From Streptomyces sp. NBC_01298 (lineage in GTDB: Bacteria; Actinomycetota; Actinomycetes; Streptomycetales; Streptomycetaceae): DNA of 64,000 nt. Where the stretch lies: positions 3,038,001 through 3,102,000 of the forward strand of contig NZ_CP108414.1 in NCBI RefSeq assembly GCF_035978755.1, read 5' to 3'. This document shows positions 21,360 through 28,114 of the stretch, piece by piece (positions within the stretch are counted from its first letter, which is position 1; the number at the start of each line of letters is the position of its first letter). The position numbers were made by a program, and so were the translations under genes. The notes under the pieces are model-generated. The model was not told the DNA's origin. It saw only the letters and a list, made by a program, of their open reading frames with translations, and ran no database searches.

Positions 21360-21512
21360 GTGGACGTGATTGTCCTCGCAGACGGCGCACATGATGCCCC
21401 CCATCTGTTTGAGGTGCGCATCGACGGACACTTTGCGCCGGTGTTTCGTCACGAAAAACATGCCTGCGTGCACACGAAGGCACAATGCGTGTCTTTCACG
21501 GATCTGGGCCAT
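21360..21512 (-). pseudogene. tnpA: truncated Y1 transposase remnant
   Basis: Reading from ATG 21512, about 51 codons match an IS200-type TnpA: HALCLRVHAGMFFVTKHRRKV, then DAHLKQMGGIMCAVCED joined directly to NHVH. In intact proteins the NHVH (HUH metal motif) lies about a dozen residues further on, so an internal deletion is evident, and everything after NHVH, including the catalytic tyrosine, is missing. The frame then runs into unrelated sequence. The product cannot transpose the element; transposition would need a TnpA in trans. Its start codon overlaps that of an alternative tnpB start on the other strand. Confidence 0.8.
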
Positions 21513-21543
21513 GCCGGTCGTTAATCGTCGGCACGATGGGGGT

Positions 21544-22827
21544 GTGAAGGCGGATGCGGGGCGTAAGTATCGTGCGTACCCCACCGGGGATCAGGACCAG
21601 GTCCTGACCGGGTGGGGTCATACGGTGCGTGCCCTGTGGAACGTGGCTCTGGAACAGCGCGTGTACCTGTGGGAGCAGCGGGCGTACACCCTGCGGTCGG
21701 CCGAGCAGTGCAGGCACCTGACGGCAGCTCGTACGGATCTTGACTGGATCGGTGACCTGCCCGCGCAGGCCGGTCAGCAGATCCTTCGCAACCTAGATCG
21801 GGCCTACGACAACTTCTGGAACCCCGAACACCCGGCACGATTCCCGGCACGGAAGAAACGCGGGCACCGCCTGTCGATCCCGTTCCCGGGCCAGGCGGTC
21901 GAGGTCCGCAAGGTGAACCGCAAGTGGGCCGAGTTGCGTCTGCCGAAGCTGGGCTGGCTGCGCTTCCGGCTCTCCCGCGCCATTGGGGGAACGATCCGTA
22001 ACGCCACCGTTTCGCGAGACGGTAACGGCTGGCACGTCTCCTTCGGTGTCCACACCAGCCGCAAGCCGGACACGCCAAACGGGAAGCCCGCGTGCGGGGT
22101 GGACTTCGGCGTCGCCGCGTCCGCGTTCGTGTCCACCGAGACCACGCCCCGGCTCATGCCGCCGACACTGACCGCCAACGAGAAGAAGCGACTCAAAGCG
22201 CTCGAACAGCGCAAGGCCCGCCAGATCACCTACACGAAGAAGCCCAACGGAGGGAAGTACAGCCACCGCCTGCGTACGACGATCGCCCAGATCGCAAGGC
22301 TCACCACCCGGCGGGCCAACCGGCGCCAGGACTTCACGCACAAACTCACCACCGACCTCGCCAAAAACCACGGCCTGATCGGCATCGAGGACCTGCGCGT
22401 GAAGAACATGACCGCCTCCGCGAAGGACAGCGTCGAAACACCGGGCAAGAACGTCCGAGCCAAGGCCGGGTTGAACCGGTCGATCCTCGACAACATCCCG
22501 GGCGAGCGGCGGCGCCAGTTTGAGTACAAGGCCCGCATATACGGGTCCGTACTCGTCGCGGTGCCGCCGTTCCACACCTCCCAGACCTGCGCCAAGTGTG
22601 GCCAGGTCGATCCCGAATCCCGCAAGGGATGCGGTCGGCTGTTCGCCTGCACCCGGTGCGGGCACGAGGACGACGCCGACCACAATGCCTCGATCGAGAT
22701 CGAGGCCCGAGCCCGCCGGACGGGCGGCTCGGATATCAACAGCACGCGCAGCACCCTCAGGGTGCGAGTCCCGGCCATCGGCCGGAGGCGGATGCGTGAA
22801 GCCCCGAAGCCCGCTCACACGAGCTAA
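21544..22827 (+). CDS. tnpB: TnpB-type RNA-guided nuclease of an IS200/IS605 element
   Basis: 427 residues from GTG 21544 (MKADAGRKYRAYPTGDQ, the usual TnpB start); ATG 21511 is an alternative. The RuvC-like triad is present: Asp187 (GVDFGVAAS), Glu282 (LIGIEDLRV) and Asp379 (DADHNAS). The four-cysteine zinc ribbon QTCAKCGQ...FACTRCGHE is intact. Family members are programmed by an RNA transcribed from the element right end and cut DNA next to a short motif. Here the protein appears complete whereas the partner tnpA is dead, so the nuclease has outlived mobility or is recently stranded. No frameshift or in-frame stop is seen. Confidence 0.93.
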   Translation: MKADAGRKYRAYPTGDQDQVLTGWGHTVRALWNVALEQRVYLWEQRAYTLRSAEQCRHLTAARTDLDWIGDLPAQAGQQILRNLDRAYDNFWNPEHPARFPARKKRGHRLSIPFPGQAVEVRKVNRKWAELRLPKLGWLRFRLSRAIGGTIRNATVSRDGNGWHVSFGVHTSRKPDTPNGKPACGVDFGVAASAFVSTETTPRLMPPTLTANEKKRLKALEQRKARQITYTKKPNGGKYSHRLRTTIAQIARLTTRRANRRQDFTHKLTTDLAKNHGLIGIEDLRVKNMTASAKDSVETPGKNVRAKAGLNRSILDNIPGERRRQFEYKARIYGSVLVAVPPFHTSQTCAKCGQVDPESRKGCGRLFACTRCGHEDDADHNASIEIEARARRTGGSDINSTRSTLRVRVPAIGRRRMREAPKPAHTS

Positions 22828-27242: not shown

Positions 27243-27770
27243 GTGTGCTACGAAACGGCACCGGGGGGGTCCGTCATATCCGGGCGAGAGGTCATCGAGG
27301 TCCGCGTCGCACGACGCATGCTCTGGGTCGGCGCCGACGCGTTCCCCGTCACCAACATCACCCGGGTCAGGGCGCTCAGCTGGGGCACCGCCCGCGGGCC
27401 GGCCGTCTCGGCCTTCGTAAGGTTCATGATCCTCCTGGTGGCCCTCACCGCCGGGGGCCTGGGCGCGTTCGGGGTGGTGCTCGTCGTCGTCGCCCCGGCC
27501 GCGACCATCGCCGTGATCCTGGTGTCACGACTGGTGTCGGTACTGCGCACCAAGACCTACTACGTCCTGGTCATCGAGACCGGCGGCGCCGCGCACCCCG
27601 CTCTGGTCAGCCTCGACATCACAGAGGTCCAAGACCTGGTCGCGAGGATCACCGACGCGATCGACGATCCGAACGCCGCCTTCGCGATCCGCATCGAGAA
27701 CCACATCGCGCAGATCGGCGACACCATCAACGTCGCCGGCACGGACAACACCGGAAAGGTGGTCGGATGA
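27243..27770 (+). CDS. DUF6232-like membrane protein with C-terminal Gly/Asn/Val motif
   Basis: 175 residues from GTG 27243. The N-terminal part (VIEVRVARRMLWVGADAFPVTNITRVRAL) and two hydrophobic helices (about 58-98) followed by a small domain (YYVLVIETGGAAHPALVSLDITEVQDLVARI) match the DUF6232 pattern as I recall it. The last 20 residues read IGDTINVAGTDNTGKVVG. Nearly the same motif opens the next protein, whose ATG overlaps this stop (ATGA). Such a short motif shared by adjacent proteins resembles bacterial amyloid-signalling pairs. The function is unknown; a membrane-linked signalling or self-assembly partner is inference only. Confidence 0.78.
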   Translation: MCYETAPGGSVISGREVIEVRVARRMLWVGADAFPVTNITRVRALSWGTARGPAVSAFVRFMILLVALTAGGLGAFGVVLVVVAPAATIAVILVSRLVSVLRTKTYYVLVIETGGAAHPALVSLDITEVQDLVARITDAIDDPNAAFAIRIENHIAQIGDTINVAGTDNTGKVVG

Positions 27771-28114
27771 CCGGCGAGGAACCCCTCTGGAGGGTCAACC
27801 ACATCGGCGACAGGATCGACGTCTCCGGTACGGGCAACATCGGGAAGGTGGTGAACAGCCACCACGCACCCCAGGTCCAGTCCGCGGCCCTCCAGGACGT
27901 GATCAGACTCATCGAGGTCCTGCGCGGCCAGGTCTCCGGGGACGACCTCGCCGACATCGACGCGTCCCTGGAGACCGTCCGCGAGGGCGAGGCCGCGGGC
28001 CCCGGCGCCGTGCGCCGGGCGCTCGACACCGTCCAGCGGATCGCCGCCGTGGTCGGTGAGGTCGGACTCCCCGTGCTCACCGCGATCACCCAGTTCCGCG
28101 CCCTGTCCGCCTGA
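27767..28114 (+). CDS. small helical protein with N-terminal Gly/Asn/Val motif
   Basis: 115 residues from ATG 27767, overlapping the previous stop by four bases. Residues 11-30 read NHIGDRIDVSGTGNIGKVVN, matching the C-terminus of its neighbour (IGDxI-V-GTxNxGKVV). A linker (NSHHAPQVQSAALQ) leads to a helical domain (about 40-115) with VIRLIEVLRGQVSGDDLADIDASLETV and RRALDTVQRIAAVVGEVGLPVLTAI in outline. Similar helical domains follow beta-rich repeat motifs in many Streptomyces proteins of unknown function. The pair sits between cslZ and glxA, which run convergently. No enzyme motif is seen. Confidence 0.78.
   Translation: MTGEEPLWRVNHIGDRIDVSGTGNIGKVVNSHHAPQVQSAALQDVIRLIEVLRGQVSGDDLADIDASLETVREGEAAGPGAVRRALDTVQRIAAVVGEVGLPVLTAITQFRALSA

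Follow-up and report, generated by a model that had tools for sequence, protein, structure and literature searches.

A DUF6232 membrane protein and its small neighbour share a cassette-specific, prion-like motif: a candidate NLR-independent signalling module in Streptomyces

In the window, the whole 64,000-nucleotide stretch of Streptomyces DNA analysed here, we found two overlapping genes that share a short Asn/Gly/Tyr-rich motif, located at the C-terminus of a DUF6232 membrane protein and at the N-terminus of its small downstream partner. The pair, the gene order, the overlap and the motif on both sides recur in related loci, and at the sequence level the two motifs co-diverge between cassettes and are specific for each other within a genome. 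Based on these patterns, we consider it rather probable that the cassette is a two-protein, NLR-independent module for signalling or recruitment, which would act via like-with-like assembly, probably of amyloid beta arches. A first-pass annotation of this DNA had proposed a matched prion-like motif joining a membrane protein and a small partner within the csl locus. The motif-matched pair held up in our analysis, whereas its membership of the csl locus did not.

Both open reading frames, the ATGA overlap and the common motif are present as first described. The cassette consists of the following features:

27243..27770, + strand: gene 1 (P0001), DUF6232 membrane protein of 175 aa, predicted from a GTG start codon at 27243
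27402..27530, + strand: hydrophobic stretch of gene 1 (about residues 54-96), with borders drawn by eye
27714..27764, + strand: C-terminal motif of gene 1, IGDTINVAGTDNTGKVV (residues 158-174), defined by its similarity to the start of gene 2 and by a motif profile match
27767..27770, + strand: ATGA overlap of the gene 1 stop and the gene 2 start, 4 nt shared
27767..28114, + strand: gene 2 (P0002), small partner of 115 aa
27803..27853, + strand: N-terminal motif of gene 2, IGDRIDVSGTGNIGKVV (residues 13-29), defined by its similarity to the end of gene 1 and by a motif profile match
27878..28111, + strand: core of gene 2 (residues 38-115), interpreted as helical and DUF5955-like

P0001 is a member of DUF6232 (PF19744), a family listed as of unknown function. 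It matched the Pfam profile with 53.8 bits against a cut-off of 27.4 (E 3.1e-14, profile positions 1-117 of 117), and no other Pfam family was found at E<=5. The hydrophobic stretch is present in all 56 non-redundant relatives of gene 1 and may form a transmembrane hairpin with both ends in the cytosol. The mean charge of the flanking residues is +3.1 before and 0.0 after this stretch, which leaves the proposed topology tentative. The ATGA overlap presumably couples the translation of the two genes. For P0002, no Pfam or NCBIfam family was matched at E<=5 and searches of PDB sequences gave nothing convincing; judged from its residues, the core is probably helical. Most small partners resemble DUF5955 (PF19380), with 41 matches at E<=1 among the 58 that were aligned (best 1.1e-6). 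P0002 itself showed no PF19380 match at E<=5, and the gathering cut-off was not reached.

Residues 155-174 of P0001 and 10-29 of P0002 align without gaps and are identical at 12 of 20 positions. The local score of this alignment is 60, compared to a mean of 20.1 (sd 4.1) and a maximum of 49 in 20,000 shuffles of the P0002 N-terminus, and to at most 46 for the other C40/N40 combinations in the window (n=2,304, from 49 mechanically called ORFs). When the whole genome was searched with profile A7, which was built with the window motif sequences included, the motifs of gene 1 and gene 2 were found with E-values of 4.6e-7 and 2.4e-7, respectively. The same genome harbours a second cassette on contig C1 (~4.0 Mb, minus strand), with its own version of the motif on three consecutive proteins: FGDSVNINGGVGNSGVV and IGDTANINGSGNIGVV end two DUF6232 proteins and YGDKVTVNGSGNIGIV starts a small protein.

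Compared to the rest of both proteins, the motif is enriched in Asn (6.9-fold), Tyr (4.3-fold) and Gly (3.0-fold), with His and Met also increased, and it is depleted in Leu, Glu, Ala and Pro. This Asn/Gly/Tyr-rich, low-charge make-up is that of prion-like stretches. The profile search suggested in the first-pass annotation tied the motif to this gene pair: in 199 genomes, three motif-type profiles, made from these same cassettes, matched only DUF6232 and small-partner genes at E<1e-3, two of them fused (L256 and L019). The idea that unrelated proteins share the motif was therefore rejected for these genomes at this threshold, as no match lay outside the DUF6232 genes, the small-partner genes and the fusions. 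Seven weaker matches that we examined lay within other long frames, and one of these is P-loop-like.

Within the genus, DUF6232 was found over its cut-off in 48 of 199 genomes and relatives of the small partner in 38 of 199 by single-sequence search, the window genome being included in both counts. A DUF6232-pattern search of named genomes yielded 70 loci, mostly from Streptomyces and Kitasatospora, and also from Streptacidiphilus, Actinophytocola, Sinosporangium, a strain named Microtetraspora and one uncultured actinomycete. Searching with the small protein led to nine loci in other genera of this family, all with the same gene order; eight carry the matched motif, and in the ninth (L296) the frame is broken at the motif. 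In a scan of the phylum, PF19744 was matched in 16 of 396 genomes, over the cut-off in three and weakly in 13.

In the pooled loci, the small partner is encoded directly downstream of 118 of 129 distinct DUF6232 domains, a count that is biased upward where loci had been fetched via the small protein. The less biased DUF6232-pattern set gave 67 paired domains out of 72 (70 loci), with a query alignment taken from paired cassettes and with near-identical strains kept. The gene overlap is 4 nt in 100 of the 118 pairs, although this number leans towards overlap because the first possible start codon was taken. Among the 11 unpaired domains of the pooled set, L009 and L104 are upstream members of tandem DUF6232 pairs, L067 and L103 lie at contig ends, L016 has a frame break, L019 is a fusion, and L089 and L091 lack a matched neighbour; the others are L120, L166 and L170. 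These last three also account for part of the five unpaired domains among the 72, together with L124 (frame break as in L016) and L175 (fusion as in L019). Solitary DUF6232 as a common state was considered and rejected: 12 seemingly unpaired loci, among L088, L090, L092-L096, L098, L100-L102 and L097, gained a partner by profile search that the single-sequence search had missed. L089, L091 and L103 were still without a partner after the profile search.

Sorted by simple patterns, the motifs fall into nine classes, for instance GDxVNMYGGxGNxG, GDxIxQYGxxNxGK, IGSMRDFYNASGxGxVGR, YNGPVFxQxGxxNxGI and FGGNQxNQSGxAKSG. The motif co-occurs in adjacent genes, a check that the first-pass annotation had proposed: its class is the same on both sides in 111 of the 118 neighbouring pairs, a figure obtained after the patterns had been tightened in light of the misses, the first and looser patterns having given 83 of 118. 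The seven pairs that differ in class were inspected for loci that keep both proteins and lose the matched motif, which would speak against a paired motif. L126, L139 and L194 are pattern artefacts (downstream NYGP match), L013, L161 and L174 are frame breaks or lost motifs, and L009 is a GG versus G variant. A tree of 115 rows requires 10 changes of class for either side, and a test on independent pairs had too few events.

A comparison of alignment scores led to the same picture. Using 56 non-redundant pairs (no more than 70% identical outside the motif, and including L161 and L174 with scores of 18 and 13), the mean motif score was 74.4 with the own partner and 42.2 with other partners (z 16.9, 20,000 permutations). 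The own partner was the best or tied in 21 of the 56 pairs and within the top tenth in 43. In the 54 pairs that score at least 40, the aligned motif has a mean length of 20 residues and a mean identity of 65%. The DUF6232 domain and the small core, on the other hand, showed no own-partner excess (26.8 vs 26.3), and the correlation of the motif distances persisted after the distances of both domains had been removed (partial Mantel 0.28, p 2e-4).

The matching also holds within single genomes. Two or three scored cassettes are present in each of 13 genomes or records, and there the own partner scored better than the partners of the sister cassettes in 29 of 29 comparisons, which are not all independent since three of the groups (G524, S. 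mutabilis and CB02414) carry near-identical cassettes. In G014, G076, G097, G102 and G191 the second cassette has been broken, fused or cut or lacks its pairing, and these genomes were left out of this scoring. Such matching is the pattern that would be expected of insulated, self-specific pairs. Covariation per column was tested three ways and is weak under the strictest. For sister pairs in two classes the count was 40 against 22.9 expected when only column rates were kept (p 5e-5), and against 34.4 expected when the divergence of each pair was kept as well (p 0.03). Given the latter value, coevolution residue by residue is only suggested.

Several loci show what can follow the motif. L166 (S. 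fulvoviolaceus) is a single open frame composed of DUF6232 (E 3.3e-18), two consecutive motif copies and a CHAT protease domain (E 1.3e-17). The partner in L170 (Sinosporangium siamense; downstream of 6480) carries the motif twice, followed by a hydrophobic segment that replaces the helical core, and in L120 (S. monomycini) the downstream protein has a matched motif and a divergent core. These three loci indicate that the downstream slot takes different outputs while the motif stays. L256 (G187) is an in-frame deletion fusion in which the DUF6232 tail continues, by way of the motif, into the small core, which is how recombination between the two motif copies would look, and in L019 the DUF6232 start runs directly into motif and core.

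Genes without the usual neighbour were also found. A solo small partner with the motif FHFGDRVTIHGGSDNIGIV is present in G074 (L029/L304), a genome that has other cassettes; there is no adjacent DUF6232, and the upstream ORF is one we take to be sigma-factor-like. L091 encodes a DUF6232 protein without motif and partner. G395 (L302, L303), from another family of the class, has three DUF6232-like genes, including a tandem pair; none carries the motif, and no small core was found in the flanks examined. The DUF6232 protein of L089 is solitary and divergent; its C-terminus is VHGDVVMGDKAGRDQYKMSGSGNRS, a repeat-like tail of another kind that resembles other BASS-type stretches, and no matched neighbour was seen. 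In L083/L306 (G054 contig 2), an ORF of 488 residues has a small-core-like domain at its end, after GDTYNVHGGAYGSAFGPHAQAHN, another Asn/Gly-rich stretch, and there was no DUF6232 match in the stretch examined around it.

The first-pass annotation had placed the cassette within the csl locus, and we follow it in calling two genes of this locus glxA-like and cslZ-like. This assignment was not borne out. We found 20 glxA-like loci in 14 other genomes, and a cslZ-like gene is also present in 16 of them (12 genomes); none of these 16 has the cassette between the two genes. The glxA-like and cslZ-like match ends are 7-213 nt apart in 15 of the 16 loci, the remaining match being a piece of a split gene, and the 16 include some second copies (52-59% identity). 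At the same place in G074 (L105), a deleted remnant was found, in which gene 1 keeps residues 1-76 and gene 2 its final 28. The cassette may thus have been inserted beside the csl genes and have decayed in a relative. In other genomes it sits in other surroundings, and one cassette is located on a linear plasmid, ~0.4 kb from an IS1380 transposase gene. The window itself also contains an IS605 OrfB/TnpB-like gene ~4.4 kb upstream of the cassette (21370-22827, + strand; Pfam OrfB_IS605 E 7.5e-16, Cas12f1-like_TNB E 1.8e-18).

No third gene that travels with the pair was found by ORF clustering of 70 loci (best 25 clusters), so that there is no hint of the signal. With the cassette and its antisense frames set aside, the largest clusters cover 14, 12, 11 and 10 loci; they may reflect shared synteny or large paralogous families. 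Viral copies were found neither in viral_contigs (one pattern) nor in phages (one query). Among the PADLOC models, P0001 had no match, and the matches of P0002 (E 0.012 and 0.03) were taken as chance. A patchy distribution, decay and carriage on a plasmid are in keeping with an accessory module of the conflict type, and the pair may act in conflict or in regulated cell death; no known defence model matches convincingly.

We propose the following mechanism. The gene 1 product would be anchored in the membrane by its DUF6232 domain, with the short Asn/Gly/Tyr-rich motif exposed at the C-terminal end. A signal at the membrane may then cluster or alter this protein, upon which the motifs would stack, most likely into an amyloid-like, cross-beta assembly made of beta arches. 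Through direct contact, this stack would template the matching N-terminal motif of gene 2, and the helical domains of gene 2 (or another output) would be gathered at the membrane and act there. Having its own motif version would keep each cassette apart from the others in the same cell.

This arrangement resembles the bacterial amyloid signalling sequences (BASS), in which a short motif ends one protein and starts its neighbour, is matched within pairs and diverse between them, and occurs in filamentous actinobacteria (as described in PMC7889193, PMC9815663 and PMC8086366). According to the account in PMC8086366, BASS1-10 were identified in neighbouring proteins, at the C-terminus of Bell and the N-terminus of the NLR, and PMC7889193 mentions CHAT domains among the reported partners of BASS motifs. 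PMC9815663 describes a foci assay in Podospora for the BASS3 motif of Streptomyces atratus, in which proline substitutions served as negative controls. Unlike BASS with an NLR partner, the cassette has no NLR; by Pfam its proteins are DUF6232 and, for relatives of the small partner, DUF5955. Neither P0001 nor P0002 matched NACHT or NB-ARC in Pfam, and no NLR core domain was present among 25 of the 29 families to which the 58 aligned small proteins showed weak similarity; one of the 58 weakly matches a NACHT N-terminal helical domain (E 0.01). Because the search for BASS1-10 was confined to Bell/NLR neighbours, pairs like the DUF6232 cassette would fall outside it. With the same placement and matching and the NLR absent, the cassette would work like a BASS pair, the likeness being one of placement and matching only. 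A short motif templated from receptor to effector, as we propose for the cassette, is also described for fungal HET-S-type and PP/RHIM signalling in PMC12881547, although the domains of the cassette are unrelated to those systems (Pfam).

Part of the evidence bears on whether the motif acts as protein at all. A repeat at the DNA level, arising by tandem duplication, gene conversion or recombination or serving as a regulatory site, would need no protein role, and the in-frame deletion fusion at the motif in L256 would agree with it. Identical residues are encoded by the same codon slightly more often in own pairs (475/680, 0.70) than in other pairs (9,257/14,356, 0.645; pairs scoring at least 40). 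However, across nine motif classes the residues match while the codons are largely as in unrelated cassettes, which indicates that the match is kept mainly as protein sequence, with gene conversion possibly contributing. On this comparison we reject a DNA-level repeat as the main cause, and we regard the explanation as a whole as extremely improbable. A common tag for a third partner such as a chaperone, protease or ligand, without mutual contact through the motif, would also account for the similarity, with nothing specific in its favour. It is hard to reconcile with motif types that co-diverge cassette by cassette inside one genome (29/29) and with the lack of a third gene travelling with the pair, and we consider it very unlikely.

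The other two explanations are still unlikely in our view, but deserve more weight. Signalling might run in the opposite direction, with DUF6232 as a membrane effector that is seeded by the small protein as a cytosolic sensor or trigger. This is a main rival because Bell effectors likewise hold their BASS at the C-terminus, while their NLR partners hold theirs at the N-terminus (according to PMC7889193). The near-universal presence of DUF5955 in the genus also agrees with it, in that a relative of this domain need not be toxic alone. What follows the motif points the other way: L166 has a CHAT protease domain, a reported BASS partner, and L170 has a hydrophobic segment. We lean towards gene 1 to gene 2 as the direction. 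Equally doubtful to us is a like-with-like contact of a non-amyloid kind, for instance a finite beta-roll or a swapped beta sheet by which a membrane complex would be kept stably together. The own-partner scores, the class match and the 29 of 29 within-genome comparisons serve it just as well, whereas the composition is that of low-charge Asn/Gly/Tyr stretches and, as we see it, a finite heterodimer would need no near-identical sequences on both sides. Amyloid-like templating from the membrane protein to its small partner is the reading that we prefer.

We found no paper that names DUF6232 or DUF5955 in a search that covered few subscription papers, and no title on such a cassette among the literature matches listed. 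DUF5955 occurs in 175 of 199 genomes of the genus, with no match at E<=0.001 in the genome of the window. No motif was seen in the 14 DUF5955 loci examined out of 30, and no DUF6232 among the ORFs listed for two of the 14. Tentatively, and with somewhat less confidence than for the signalling module itself, we suggest that the cassettes represent an NLR-free prion-like family. In such a family each cassette would have a self-specific amyloid address (nine classes), insulated from its sisters, and exchangeable outputs (DUF5955-like, CHAT or membrane segment) would be placed behind a DUF6232 hub that is anchored in the membrane.

A review from the BASS group (PMC7889193) poses as an open question whether bacteria have signalling amyloids that work independently of NLRs. 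The cassette offers a concrete and testable candidate for one, made of two small proteins and available in many natural variants: 118 pairs (56 non-redundant), fusions, and genomes with two or three seemingly insulated versions. It could supply self-assembly tags that are orthogonal to one another, and it could give DUF6232 its first function.
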